From assembly GCF_012843435.1 (NCBI RefSeq), contig NZ_JABAFC010000035.1:1-40317 (forward strand): 40,317 nucleotides of DNA, given 5' to 3'. Position 1 is the first letter of the stretch, and each line of letters begins with the position of its first letter. This document shows positions 15,731 through 37,582 of the stretch, piece by piece. The notes under the pieces are model-generated. The model searched no databases. It saw only the letters and a program-made list of their open reading frames with translations, and was not told the DNA's origin. The position numbers and the translations under genes are program-made. This DNA comes from Psychrobacillus sp. BL-248-WT-3 (lineage in GTDB: Bacteria > Bacillota > Bacilli > Bacillales_A > Planococcaceae).

Positions 15731-15888
15731 ATTTATAACCTCCTAAATTTAAGATATTTTACCATTTTTATAGGTCGCTACAATTATAATATACAGAAAA
15801 TATTGGATTCGCAATTTTGTAACTGAGTTATTCTGAAAATAAGATGTAAGACCTAACTCATAGTCTTTTTACCTATGTACAAGTTTAA

Positions 15889-15936
15889 ACACAATATGTT
15901 AGGGTATATAAGTAAACAAAACACAATATATAGTAT
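15889..15936 (+). promoter_or_regulatory. Paired NrdR-like boxes at the RNR promoter
   Basis: ACACAATATGTTAGGG (15889-15904) and ACACAATATATAGTAT (15921-15936) both match the left half of the NrdR box consensus (ACACWATATMTWGTGT). They start 32 bp apart, about three helical turns, as in known NrdR operators. The second box contains -10-like TATA sequences, so binding would block the promoter. NrdR represses RNR genes when dATP is high; nrdR itself is not in the window. Confidence 0.7.
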
Positions 15937-32705: not shown

Positions 32706-32737
32706 CACTAACCTTATGAAAAAAAGGAAAGTCACCG

Positions 32738-32832
32738 CACTTCCTCACGCAGGTATTATCCTGATCGAGTAATAAGGGATCGGAGCTTAAAAAGCTCTCA
32801 TCACAGCCAAAGTGGGCACCCCTAGTGCAGAA
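32738..32832 (-). promoter_or_regulatory. TPP riboswitch (THI element)
   Basis: Reading leftward the THI-box blocks appear in order: CTAGGGGTGCCC, GGCTGTGATGAGAGC (an expanded form of the usual CTGAGA block), CCCTTATTACTCGATCAGGATAATACCTGCG and GAGGAAGTGC. It precedes a terminator and ykoF, so TPP should switch off uptake. 32833-32986, which must hold the promoters for this transcript and for the rightward dehydrogenase gene, shows no promoter I would defend. Confidence 0.93.
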
Positions 32833-32986
32833 ACGGTATGTAGTTTTCCAATTATGTAAGATTTACACAATCTGTTTTTTTATGTGACCACAGTATAGCG
32901 TATAAAAATATTATTGTAAATACAGTTGAATTCTTTTCTCAAATCAGCGATGCTTAAATTATCAGAAAATCATTAGGGGGAATTGG

Positions 32987-33946: not shown

Positions 33947-34083
33947 AGTGTAAGAGATGCCATGAACATATCGTTCATGGTTTTTTTAGTTTTATAATAA
34001 AATCCCATGAACAGTGCTAAAACCTTAATGACGTTATAAATCGCTACGAATGGTGTTAATCCCCCGAATGGTGATAAATTCAA
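33943..34083 (-). CDS. Possible small membrane peptide (low confidence)
   Basis: A 46-codon leftward frame starting TTG (34081-34083) behind AGAGGAG, reading LNLSPFGGLTPFVAIYNVIK and then a hydrophobic ALFMGFYY stretch before a Lys-rich turn. An extended -10 (TG-T-GATAAT, about 34145-34153) lies some 60 bp upstream. Against it: the spacing is short, and the last third runs backward through the dehydrogenase terminator. It may be a small or decayed gene; I know no homologue. Confidence 0.3.
   Translation of the reverse strand: MNLSPFGGLTPFVAIYNVIKVLALFMGFYYKTKKTMNDMFMASLTL
33959..33987 (+). terminator. Terminator after the hydroxyacid dehydrogenase
   Basis: CCATGAAC (33960-33967) pairs with GTTCATGG (33973-33980), followed by seven T. 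Confidence 0.88.
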
Positions 34084-34290
34084 AATCTCCTCTATTTATC
34101 TGCTTACTTTCTCCTAGAGAAAGCCCCCCTCGAACAAAAAAAGAATTATCACAAATAATTAATAATTACGTCGTTATTTATATGAATAGATTGTCTAGGC
34201 TTTACTATTTACTTAATGATAAATAACTAGAAATATGATACAAAATATTCAGATAAAGATAGAATAATAACAATCATTTATTAAGTGAAT

Positions 34291-34319
34291 TTGCAATATA
34301 CAAATTTTTTTAGTAATAT
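34291..34319 (+). promoter_or_regulatory. Probable promoter of the betaine transporter operon
   Basis: TTGCAA (34291-34296) and TAATAT (34314-34319) with a 17-bp spacer make a good sigma-A promoter. Transcription would start near 34326, exactly where the left arm of the leader's inverted repeat begins. In the rest of 33988-34290 I see a CGAATGGTG direct repeat (34047-34055, 34065-34073) and a CTTTCTC/GAGAAAG hairpin (34107-34123), neither with a clear role. Confidence 0.6.
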
Positions 34320-34325
34320 TAGTAG

Positions 34326-34436
34326 TTATAAATTAGACGTCCTTTAATTTCCAAATTCAGGGAAGTTTAATTGTTTAGGATTTTAGCAATTATTTATAGA
34401 TTTTGAAGGAGGAGCGATCGAACGTCTAATTTATAA
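34326..34436 (+). promoter_or_regulatory. Structured mRNA leader with 15-bp closing stem (unclassified)
   Basis: TTATAAATTAGACGT (34326-34340) is perfectly complementary to ACGTCTAATTTATAA (34422-34436). The enclosed 81 nt can form a hairpin TTAATTTCC/GGAAGTTTAA (34344-34376, one bulge) and a smaller AATTG/CAATT helix. They also hold a perfect but start-less Shine-Dalgarno (GAAGGAGGAG, 34405-34414). The true ribosome site of the binding-protein gene lies just after the closing stem. It does not match the c-di-AMP, SAM, glycine or guanidine riboswitch cores I know. Confidence 0.55.
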
Positions 34437-34463
34437 ACTGAATGAAAAGAGGTAGTCAAACTA

Positions 34464-35459
34464 ATGAAAAAGATTATGTTATTTTTTTCACTTTGCATGC
34501 TTTTAGTACTTGCAGCCTGTGGCAGTGAGACAAGCAAGGACAGTATTGAGGTGATTAAGTTTGCTGATGCGGGGTGGGATAGTATTCGCCTACACAATAG
34601 CATAGCTCAAACAATCGTCGAAGAAGGTTATGGTTATGAAACCGAAGTAACAAGTGGAACAACGGCAGCAACCATGCAGTCACTTGAAAAGGGCGACATA
34701 AATGTCTATATGGAAGTATGGACCGATAACATTAAAGATGTCTATGAAAAAGCAATTGAAAGTGGAGATATCATAAAGGTAGCTACTAATTTCGCTGACA
34801 ACGCGCAAGGATTATATGTTCCAACTTACGTGATAGAAGGAGATCCAGAACGAGGTATTGAACCAATCGCTCCAGATTTAAAAACAGTTCAAGACTTAGA
34901 GAAGTATCCAGAAATTTTCCAAGATCCCGAAGATAGCAGTAAAGGCCGAGTGGTCGGTGCTCCATCCAGTTGGGTAGTAAGTGAGTATTTGGGGACGAAA
35001 CTTGAAACATATGGCCTTGACGAACAATATAACTATCTAGCACCTGGCTCTGATTCTGCCATTGTTGCAGATTTAGCTGGCGCATATAAAAAAGGCGAGC
35101 CGTGGGTAGGTTATTATTGGTCACCAACGTGGGTAACAGCAAGCTACGATTTAACTCTATTAGAAGACGCACCATACGATGAAGCAACATGGAATGATTC
35201 GAAGGGAACTGAATTTCCTCCGAATGATGTAGTGGTTGCTGTTCATAAAGATTTACCAACACAAGCTAAGGAAGTAGTAGACTTTTTAAGTAACTATGAA
35301 ACTAGCAATGATTTAACAGAAAGTGCTTTAGATTACATGCAAGAAAATGATGTGGAAGCAGATGAAGCCGCTATTTGGTGGATGAAAGAGTATGAAGATA
35401 TTTGGACAGCTTGGGTGTCAGAAGAAGTGGCAGAAAAAGTTAAAGCTTCTTTAAAATAA
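34464..35459 (+). CDS. opuAC: Glycine betaine/proline-type ABC transporter, substrate-binding lipoprotein
   Basis: A 331-residue OpuAC/ProX-family lipoprotein: signal peptide with lipobox LAAC (Cys19), then FADAGWDSIRLHNSIAQTI (about 34-52), MEVWTDNIKDVYEK and GEPWVGYYWSPTWVT, the aromatic-rich segments that cage quaternary ammonium groups in this family. It captures osmoprotectants such as glycine betaine outside the membrane. RBS AAAGAGGTAG. Gene order here (binding protein, permease, ATPase) is the reverse of B. subtilis opuAA-AB-AC, so the symbol is by homology only. Confidence 0.88.
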   Translation: MKKIMLFFSLCMLLVLAACGSETSKDSIEVIKFADAGWDSIRLHNSIAQTIVEEGYGYETEVTSGTTAATMQSLEKGDINVYMEVWTDNIKDVYEKAIESGDIIKVATNFADNAQGLYVPTYVIEGDPERGIEPIAPDLKTVQDLEKYPEIFQDPEDSSKGRVVGAPSSWVVSEYLGTKLETYGLDEQYNYLAPGSDSAIVADLAGAYKKGEPWVGYYWSPTWVTASYDLTLLEDAPYDEATWNDSKGTEFPPNDVVVAVHKDLPTQAKEVVDFLSNYETSNDLTESALDYMQENDVEADEAAIWWMKEYEDIWTAWVSEEVAEKVKASLK

Positions 35460-35507: not shown

Positions 35508-36383
35508 TTGCAGTCCTACTATATGACAGAATTTCCAGATGTACGTTTTCCAATCGGGGATGTAGTAGAAAAATTCGTGGATTTTTTAGCCGCGAACTTT
35601 GATGCATTCTTTGATTTTATCTTTATTATTTCTTCCTCTATGATTAAAGGCTTAGAGGCAGGTCTATTAGCAATACCTTGGTGGTTATTTATTGTTATCA
35701 TCTTTTTAATAGGGTGGTATTTTAATAATATTTATGGAGGATTGCTTTATGGGGCATTTATCTTTTTAATAGGCTCCTTTGATTTGTGGCCGGAAACGAT
35801 GACCACGATTTCCATCGTTCTAATCTCCGTAATTTTGTCTCTTGTAATAGGCATTCCGCTAGGCGTTGGAATGGCTTTTAGTAAGTCCATGTCCAGAATC
35901 ATGCGCCCAATATTAGACGCAATGCAGACAATGCCGAGCTTTGTCTACTTAATACCAGTAATTTTCTTCTTTCCACTAGGAAATGTACCAGCAGTTATTG
36001 CGACAATCATTTATGCTTTACCACCAGTAATCCGTTTAACAGAATTAGGGATCCGAAGTGTAGATAAAGAAATTGTAGAGTCTGCACAATCATTTGGTTC
36101 CTCTTCCTCTCAAATGCTCATGAAAGTACAACTACCACAAGCCTTACCTACAATTATGGCTGGTATCAATCAAACAACGATGATGGCTCTTGCAATGGCT
36201 GTTGTTGGTTCTATGGTTGGGGCACAGGGACTTGGAGAGCGAGTACTCTTTGCGATTAACCGAATTGACATATCCCTTGGTTTTGAAGCCGGAATTAGTA
36301 TCGTCTTTCTAGCGATCATCATCGACCGAGTTACCGGAGGAATTGCAAATCGCCTTCAGAAACATAGGAGGGATGTAGCATGA
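35508..36383 (+). CDS. opuAB: Glycine betaine/proline-type ABC transporter, permease
   Basis: A protein of up to 291 residues with an OpuAB/ProW-like N-terminal tail, FPIGDVVEKFVDFLAANFDAFFDFI, about six to seven hydrophobic helices, and the EAA-type coupling loop ESAQSFGSSSSQMLMKVQLPQALPTIMAGINQT. The start is not clear: TTG at 35508 (291 aa) and ATG at 35523 (286 aa) both lie further than usual from the AGAGGTGACC upstream. It overlaps the ATPase gene by 4 bp. Confidence 0.88.
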   Translation: MQSYYMTEFPDVRFPIGDVVEKFVDFLAANFDAFFDFIFIISSSMIKGLEAGLLAIPWWLFIVIIFLIGWYFNNIYGGLLYGAFIFLIGSFDLWPETMTTISIVLISVILSLVIGIPLGVGMAFSKSMSRIMRPILDAMQTMPSFVYLIPVIFFFPLGNVPAVIATIIYALPPVIRLTELGIRSVDKEIVESAQSFGSSSSQMLMKVQLPQALPTIMAGINQTTMMALAMAVVGSMVGAQGLGERVLFAINRIDISLGFEAGISIVFLAIIIDRVTGGIANRLQKHRRDVA

Positions 36384-37582
36384 CAGTAAAATTAAGACTA
36401 GAAAATGTCTCCAAAATATTTGGACCACGCCCTAAAAAAATTATCCCAATGGTAGAGAAGAGTGTACCAAAGGAAGAGATATTAGCTAAGACAGGGCATA
36501 CTGTTGGAGTGTACAATGCTTCTATGGAAATCATGGAAGGAGAGACCTTCGTCATCATGGGACTGTCTGGAAGTGGCAAATCTACCCTAATCCGTTGCTT
36601 GAATTTATTAAATAGACCTACCTCAGGTGCTATTTATGTCGATGGGGAAAATGTGGTCGATTACAATAAGACACAGTTAAAATTCTATCGTCAAAAGAAA
36701 ATAGCAATGGTATTTCAACACTTTGGACTGTTTAGTCATCGTACAGTATTAGAAAATATTGAGTATGGATTAGAAATTAGAGGTATGTCCAAGAAGGAGC
36801 GTCAGGAAATTGCTCAGAAGCATTTAGAGACGGTCGGTCTTAAAGGATATGAAAACCAATATCCAGATGAGCTTTCTGGCGGTATGCGTCAGCGAGTAGG
36901 CATCGCAAGAGCGCTTGCGAACGATCCAGACATCCTATTAATGGACGAGCCCTTCAGTGCACTTGACCCACTAATCCGTAGAGAAATGCAGCTAGAGCTT
37001 TTAGATATCCAAAATCGTCTGCAAAAAACAATTATTTTCATTACACATGACGTTAACGAAGCATTTAAAATTGGTGACCGTGTGGCTGTTATGAAAAACG
37101 GGAAAGTAGAGCAAATTGGTACGCCAGAAGAGATTCTGGAAAATCCAGCAAGCAGCTATATTTCGGAATTCATACGCGATATCGACCGCACTAAAATTCT
37201 TCAGGCTGAACACATTATGTCTAAGCCTAATGGATTAGTATCCTTAAAGGATGGACTAAATGTTGCAATCCAGGTAATGAGAGAGAATGGTAACTCGAGT
37301 GCGTTTGTAGTTGACAGAAAGCGACAGCTACAAGGTATTATTACCATCGACCAGGCTATTGAAGGGATGAAACAAAAGAAAACCTTGCAAGAAGCAATGT
37401 CGAAGGAAGTAAAAACTGTACATCCAGAAGAATATGTACAAGATTTAATACAACAGGTACTTGATTCCAAGTATCCTCTCGTTGTTACAGACGAGGAAGG
37501 TACGATGAAAGGAATTATTTTACGAGTGCATGTATTGGCAAGTTTAATAAGTGATCCTATCGAAGAAACGGAAGAAATATAA
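36380..37582 (+). CDS. opuAA: Glycine betaine/proline-type ABC transporter, ATPase with CBS domains
   Basis: A 400-residue ATPase: Walker A GLSGSGKST, signature LSGGMRQRVGIARAL, Walker B ILLMDEPFSALDP, H-loop FITHD, then two C-terminal CBS domains (about 270-400). In OpuA-type systems the CBS pair senses ionic strength or binds c-di-AMP to control uptake. The N-terminal extension FGPRPKKIIPMVEKSVPKEEILAKTG is also typical of OpuAA/GbuA. It is coupled to the permease gene by an ATGA overlap. Confidence 0.92.
   Translation: MTVKLRLENVSKIFGPRPKKIIPMVEKSVPKEEILAKTGHTVGVYNASMEIMEGETFVIMGLSGSGKSTLIRCLNLLNRPTSGAIYVDGENVVDYNKTQLKFYRQKKIAMVFQHFGLFSHRTVLENIEYGLEIRGMSKKERQEIAQKHLETVGLKGYENQYPDELSGGMRQRVGIARALANDPDILLMDEPFSALDPLIRREMQLELLDIQNRLQKTIIFITHDVNEAFKIGDRVAVMKNGKVEQIGTPEEILENPASSYISEFIRDIDRTKILQAEHIMSKPNGLVSLKDGLNVAIQVMRENGNSSAFVVDRKRQLQGIITIDQAIEGMKQKKTLQEAMSKEVKTVHPEEYVQDLIQQVLDSKYPLVVTDEEGTMKGIILRVHVLASLISDPIEETEEI

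Follow-up and report, generated by a model that had tools for sequence, protein, structure and literature searches.

Stems located at the very 5' end of a message act as stabilizers, as in the ompA and aprE leaders. In E. coli, RppH and RNase E are described as needing single-stranded 5' termini, and the stabilizing effect of 5' structures is explained in this way (PMC3997798). STAB-SD sequences are reported to bind the 30S subunit without directing initiation, and to block RNase J1 (PMC4113751). As regards osmoprotectant uptake, OpuD and OpuE of B. subtilis are listed as being under SigB control (PMC7522486), and a sigma-B consensus is given as GTTTAA and GGGTAT separated by 15 +/- 2 nt, the published search having covered N12-N17 and a spacing of 14 being apparently optimal (PMC9847131). 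A candidate proX riboswitch motif is known in Spiribacter (PMC8632094), and cleavage of osmoprotectant transporter mRNAs by RNase III is described in E. coli (PMC4067347).

The leader studied here lies in a 40,317-nt stretch of Psychrobacillus sp. BL-248-WT-3 DNA, analyzed as a whole and called the window below. A search of the open-licence PMC literature at listing level found no earlier description of it. It stands directly 5' of a betaine/choline-family uptake operon with the order substrate-binding protein, permease, ATPase; the PF04069, permease and CBS-domain ATPase matches agree with the betaine ABC transporter proposed in the preliminary description. The features are collected in Table 1.

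Table 1. Leader and operon features in the window (position 1 is the first letter of the 40,317-nt stretch).
Feature	Position	Strand	Remarks
Sigma-A-type promoter TTGCAA-N17-TAATAT	34291..34319	+	-35 34291-34296, -10 34314-34319; predicted +1 near 34325-34327
Stem P1, 5' arm	34326..34340	+	perfect 15-nt inverted repeat; covariation
Variable loop	34341..34404	+	two hairpins in the fold predicted for the window
Putative decayed counterpart of sigma-B-type promoter	34380..34404	+	ATTTTA-N13-GATTTT, 7/12 (by eye)
Inner Shine-Dalgarno GAAGGAGG	34405..34412	+	STAB-SD-like; stronger than the gene's own site
12-codon frame, ATC to TAG	34417..34455	+	read from the sequence; weak
Stem P1, 3' arm	34422..34436	+	perfect 15-nt inverted repeat; covariation
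AAGAGG, ribosome site serving the opuAC-type gene	34447..34452	+	0.84 unpaired at 37 C in predicted ensemble
OpuAC-type betaine/choline-family substrate-binding protein	34464..35459	+	PF04069, 190 bits
ProW/ChoW-like permease	35508..36383	+	PF00528; TIGR03416 below cut-off
ProV-type ATPase with CBS domains	36380..37582	+	TIGR01186 above cut-off; PF00005, PF00571

The stem of the window's leader is real and evolutionarily conserved. Its two arms form a perfect 15-bp inverted repeat with 81 nt separating them, which is the sole inverted repeat of at least 10 nt reported within 34150-34480. The longest perfect stem in shuffles was 12, 12 and 13 for upstream regions of 138, 190 and 260 nt, and 15 bp was reached by none of 1000 shuffles at each of these three lengths; the perfect pairing of the arms first noticed by inspection is therefore confirmed by both the repeat scan and the shuffles. 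The folding energy of the leader (-27.6 kcal/mol) is by itself just mildly unusual, since its z value is -1.98 and 8 of 200 shuffles were equally good. As for the two helices expected inside P1, they are predicted for the window, but the minimum-energy folds of other Psychrobacillus leaders give different ones.

Comparison among homologues provides the main evidence for the stem. In an alignment of 10 leaders, 7 of 18 pairs are changed on both sides, an extent reached by 7/500 shuffles, and mean column identity rises from 0.62-0.68 in the loop through 0.73 at the inner site to 0.85-0.86 in the arms. A 16-row set was formed with these rows, L003, L009 (its arm placed by hand) and four leaders from other genera of the same family (L041, L043, L045 and L047), leaving out L008, which lacks the 5' arm. 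Over the 13 pairs considered, pairing is kept in 87.5% of the cells, and double changes that preserve it are seen in 15 cells, distributed over 6 pairs. Column shuffles equaled the double-changed cells in 0/500 cases, the cells paired in 1/500 and the covariation score in 1/500; the number of further pair types was not above the shuffles (125/500 equal to that observed). Because column shuffles ignore relatedness, a tree-based null was added, in which the arms were simulated without structure on a tree of opuAC coding DNA, starting from the commonest letter of each site and keeping its parsimony change number as observed. The observed values were attained in 0/2000 simulations for cells paired, 2/2000 for double-changed cells and 3/2000 for double-changed pairs. 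The preliminary description had set beforehand a lack of covariation in the 15-bp stem across homologues as its refutation; covariation is present against the shuffles and the tree-based null alike. Hence, comparison shows that the predicted sigma-A transcript begins with ~15 nt that have been selected to pair with the segment 28-42 nt before the start codon. Exceptions exist: L009 is mostly unpaired and keeps fragments of the stem, and L006, L041 and L043 have lost inner pairs.

Regarding its spread, the closest protein relative is that of P. faecigallinarum (97% identical), and proteins 81-97% identical are found in five named Psychrobacillus species and one Psychrobacillus sp. A covariance model, R1, was built from the 10 leaders, omitting L003 (a near-duplicate), L008 and L009. 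It matches 13 of 19 Psychrobacillus genomes with one copy each, precisely the 13 that carry the opuAC-type gene; ten of these matches are the model's own rows and hence occur by construction, the others being G011 (of the same species as the window), G007 (L009) and G010 (L008). An opuAC-type protein is present in 23 further genomes of the family. Over 261 family genomes R1 gave 15 matches, of which the two outside Psychrobacillus (2/242) are marginal; these, L028 and L029 (E 0.046 and 0.058), show no opuAC gene in the 350 bases inspected and were taken as chance. Over 83 other loci, R1 gave 22 matches up to E 10, none under 0.0076, among which L041, L043/L067, L045/L073, L047 and L050 are located in the opuAC leader. 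The L067 leader, from a record titled Arthrobacter beigongshangensis, is identical to L043, from a genome of the window's family, which is probably an oddity of naming.

Upstream regions of opuAC were also scanned for stems of any kind, with 60 shuffles per row, and p <=0.05 was reached in 18 rows, 12 of them from Psychrobacillus (duplicate leader copies included) and the rest being L085, L052, L083, L109, L053 and L089. The best stem differs from P1 in L006/L065 and L061, and most single sequences from genera outside Psychrobacillus yielded no significant stem. L046, L049, L050 and L048 have, by eye only, a stem of other sequence with similar layout, to which the per-sequence scan gives no support. 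Twelve leaders of the Sporosarcina ureae type (L077, L079-L083, L089, L052, L053, L055, L057 and L059; three duplicate copies removed) are predicted to fold into a long, imperfect rod that begins close to +1 and extends as far as the ribosome site. Its covariation appears modest, with 3 of 26 pairs double-changed, matched by 87/500 shuffles, and a covariation score matched by 2/500; the inner Shine-Dalgarno is absent in all 12. In Bacillus/Lederbergia leaders (L069-L071, L074, L075 and L100), a CGTACCATTA..TATAGGC-like stretch is conserved, by eye, ~130 nt before opuAC, and it may be just a promoter -10 region.

The promoter placed ahead of P1 agrees with the sigma-A consensus in 8 of 12 positions by hand count and is not listed by the consensus promoter scan. 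The good promoter of the preliminary description, with a start at about 34326, is to be corrected accordingly. Its support is that most relatives have, by eye, a similar promoter ahead of the 5' arm; it is unclear in L009 and deleted in L008. A second promoter seems to be nested in the loop. In Psychrobacillus, each of the 10 leaders that do not belong to the window's clade has there a sigma-B-type promoter that scores 11-12/12, formed by a GTTTAA-like hexamer, exactly 13 bases and a GGGTAT-like hexamer, and 19/19 Psychrobacillus genomes have a sigma B match above the family cut-off. At the homologous place P. faecigallinarum has ATTTTA-N13-AGGTAT (9/12, by eye). Both this site and that of the window were left unlisted by the scan because it demanded GG at -10; in the window's clade it gave just one 9/12 site elsewhere in L002/L003 and none in L004. 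We infer that the sigma-B box has decayed in this clade.

The sigma-B reading is helped by genome-wide enrichment. Exact GTTTAA-N12..15-GGGTAT occurs at 14 sites in the window's genome against one reversed-control site, and GWTTAA-N13-GGGTAT has 77 matches across the genus against 26 for the control (summed by hand), 7 of the 77 being opuAC leaders. It is not helped by the upstream region of sigB itself (1.5 kb), in which boxes are sparse: a box of at least 10/12 was found at just 3 of 19 loci and none at the other 16. The leader spacing of 13 is at the short end of that published (PMC9847131). Judging from spacing, sigma-B transcripts are predicted to start about 6-9 nt past the -10 hexamer, which in most such leaders, though not in L006, would be at the inner Shine-Dalgarno.

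This inner site is stronger than the one that serves the gene. Hybridization with the 16S tail gives -12.4 kcal/mol for the inner site of the window versus -8.5 kcal/mol for the real one, and 0/60 shuffles were as strong. Among the 21 leaders of this type, all except L008 (20 of 21) have an inner site stronger than that of the gene. Against 60 shuffles of the sequence around it, the inner site is unusual (<=5%) in 16 of the 21, among them the window's; in L005, L007, L008, L009 and L011 it is not unusual, and its edge there is small or absent. Comparison thus shows that a ribosome-binding sequence surpassing the gene's own is usually kept in the loop, immediately 5' of the P1 3' arm. As in a STAB-SD, a strong Shine-Dalgarno is present in the 5' UTR, remote from the gene start. 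An ATG, GTG or TTG lies 3-11 nt past it in 12 of the 21 leaders (opening, for example, MRLI, MCLF or VFSH) and in none of the three leaders of the window's clade, so that the perfect Shine-Dalgarno with no start codon nearby, pointed out earlier, stands as described. The 12-codon ATC frame exists as well, but its TAG, read from the sequence, is at 34453-34455 and not at 34452-34454; it is possibly, on weak grounds, a relic of the mini-ORF (MRLI etc.) present in some relatives.

L008, the leader of G010, is a degenerate R1 match (E 0.0056). By eye over 700 bases upstream, its sigma-A region and 5' arm are lost, and a terminator-like hairpin of the upstream gene is near the loop. It is a natural deletion that keeps the sigma-B box and has a weakened inner Shine-Dalgarno, and it offers a ready opportunity to examine how stem and inner site are linked.

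Folding of 18 leaders at 37 and 15 C, as RNAs ending 12 nt into the gene and excluding L003, L008 and L009, leaves the real Shine-Dalgarno 0.42-0.97 unpaired, so the stem does not act by simply covering the gene's ribosome site. The start codon is predicted less than 0.5 unpaired in 6/18 leaders at 37 C and 10/18 at 15 C. P1 is predicted at both temperatures in 15/18, which makes a melting thermosensor, one of the functions suggested at the outset, unlikely; at 37 C it has 0.5 expected pairs in L006 and 1.4 in L043, and it is not favored in these two. The failure to match the leader to a known RNA class is corroborated by Rfam 15, which at the gathering threshold gives only Cobalamin and TPP over the whole window, both outside the leader, and in a relaxed search (33950-34600, E up to 10) three sub-threshold matches, all on the minus strand with E 1.3-6.5.

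The cobalamin riboswitch (RF00174, 15933-16111, plus strand, 130.9 bits) precedes a 741-aa ORF that we take to be a class I ribonucleotide reductase subunit, presumably followed by an NrdI-like ORF. An exact sigma-B-type box, GTTTAA-N13-GGGTAT, is found at 15883-15907 (plus strand), 25 nt upstream of this riboswitch; the same 25 bases are present in G002 and G011, and with one letter different in G009. The TPP riboswitch (32725-32833, minus strand, 63.1 bits) lies upstream of a minus-strand cluster that looks to us like an ECF-type thiamine-precursor transporter.

We think that these data point, although tentatively and with somewhat less than an even chance of being right, to a clade-specific leader that seals the 5' end of the message, carries a STAB-SD-like ribosome site and, in relatives, nests a sigma-B-type promoter; the mechanism is inferred. 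P1 would seal the 5' end against entry of a pyrophosphohydrolase and an RNase J-type 5'-3' exonuclease, and the inner site would bind the 30S subunit without productive initiation, in the STAB-SD mode, the expected outcome being a long-lived message. P1 might additionally cover the stretch from which a mini-ORF would be translated. In other Psychrobacillus, the sigma-B promoter in the loop would produce a second, short, stress-induced message beginning at the inner Shine-Dalgarno and therefore devoid of the 5' arm, whereas the window would have retained stem and inner site and let the sigma-B box decay. A stabilizing leader is favored because a stem at the extreme 5' end and a strong ribosome site heading no gene are what a stabilizer needs. 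Among the observations that count against it are the start codon past the inner site in 12 leaders, as a pure STAB-SD needs none; the start codon of the gene, which several folds show partly paired; and the inner site, which beats shuffles in 16 leaders and not in all. The last two lower our confidence in this reading and slightly raise that in a riboswitch. A two-message device, in which the sigma-A transcript would lock an over-strong ribosome site and the sigma-B transcript would start there unlocked, seems to us possible yet doubtful; the species without the lock also has a weakened inner site, which is one species (L008). If true, one transporter gene would be served by two sigma factors through messages differing in ribosome loading and lifetime.

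Next to the stabilizing leader we rank a switch based on a mini-ORF, which we nevertheless consider unlikely. The inner Shine-Dalgarno would drive a short ORF (MRLI, MCLF, VHLIRK, VFSH) starting at or in the P1 3' arm; P1 would shut it, and melting would lead to translation followed by re-initiation at the transporter gene or by loss before it. The 12 leaders with a start codon suit this proposal, six of them (L005, L007, L010, L012, L013 and L014) at a homologous position in our own alignment, but around one third of leaders would have one by chance (hand estimate from base composition) and nine have none: L002, L003 and L004 of the window's clade, L006, L008, L043, L045, L047 and L048. Besides, the peptide differs between genera, and the same letters are already constrained by the stem. 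Appreciably less probable is a new riboswitch for a metabolite, ion or second messenger (betaine, choline, Na+, c-di-AMP), even if a conserved stem closing from near +1 to near the ribosome site ahead of an osmoprotectant operon invites the thought, the Spiribacter candidate offers a precedent, and the partly paired start codons could be read in its favor. No aptamer core common to the clades was found in the loop, which diverges among the window's clade, other Psychrobacillus, Ureibacillus and Sporosarcina (alignment and by eye); the leader has no Rfam match at gathering score, the scan reported no terminator in it, the real Shine-Dalgarno is inconsistently covered, and the 13 Psychrobacillus genomes have a single copy each. 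Its most regular loop letters in other Psychrobacillus are those of the sigma-B-type promoter. What remains of the preliminary description is then a genuine, covarying and Rfam-unclassified structured RNA, but not its riboswitch-like character: on the basis of sequence comparison, a ligand-binding riboswitch in the usual sense is not supported.

Two further explanations appear to us very improbable, and to a similar degree. Osmotic processing of the RNase III type, as for the proU and betT mRNAs of E. coli, would concern a target gene of the same type, but the 15-bp stem of the window is shorter than the 22-bp minimum stated for cleavage (PMC4067347), and the arms have mismatches in most homologues. 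Alternatively, the inverted repeat might function in the DNA, as an operator whose two half-sites a GbsR/OpcR-like repressor would bind. This would fit arms that abut the promoter and exceed the rest of the 10-row alignment in conservation (0.85 and 0.86 vs 0.62-0.73); however, arm letters change on both sides with complementarity kept, some Sporosarcina leaders show, by eye, a similar layout with other arm sequences, and the half-sites would be separated by 96 bp.

In our opinion, osmoprotectant uptake in Psychrobacillus and in some of the related Planococcaceae would gain, with this leader, a covarying structured element without Rfam match. About 120 nt would connect the sigma factors A and B with ribosome binding or mRNA stability. 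The natural variants, i.e., the clade with the decayed sigma-B box and the species without the 5' arm, make its parts separable by reporter assays. It also illustrates that a regular loop motif can resemble an aptamer when a nested promoter is likelier.

Compared with known systems, the leader shares with stabilizers of the ompA/aprE type a stem at the very 5' end, which here is long-range and closes about 77-92 nt. The proX motif (SRC-29-1) of Spiribacter, also a structured leader before a betaine transporter gene, is the nearest one described; it belongs to other taxa and is described as having a ribosome site that can be occluded by P2 sequence (PMC8632094), whereas predicted occlusion is inconsistent in Psychrobacillus. 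With E. coli proU and betT mRNAs the leader would have in common the post-transcriptional control of an osmoprotectant transporter, which for Psychrobacillus is a proposal, and it differs in a stem under the 22-bp minimum stated there (PMC4067347). The promoter in the loop resembles the sigma-B osmoprotectant promoters of Bacillus in that it is of the GTTTAA-N13-GGGTAT type, within the N12-N17 range (PMC9847131), and stands before a betaine-family transporter; it differs in being nested in the loop of a structured sigma-A leader and appears decayed in the window's clade. Finally, cry3A of Bacillus thuringiensis has, like the window, a Shine-Dalgarno-like sequence in the 5' UTR apart from the gene's own site (PMC4113751), and the likeness extends to the window having no start codon 3-11 nt past it; unlike the cry3A STAB-SD, the site described here is enclosed in a covarying stem that begins at the predicted +1, and a start codon follows it in 12 of 21 leaders.
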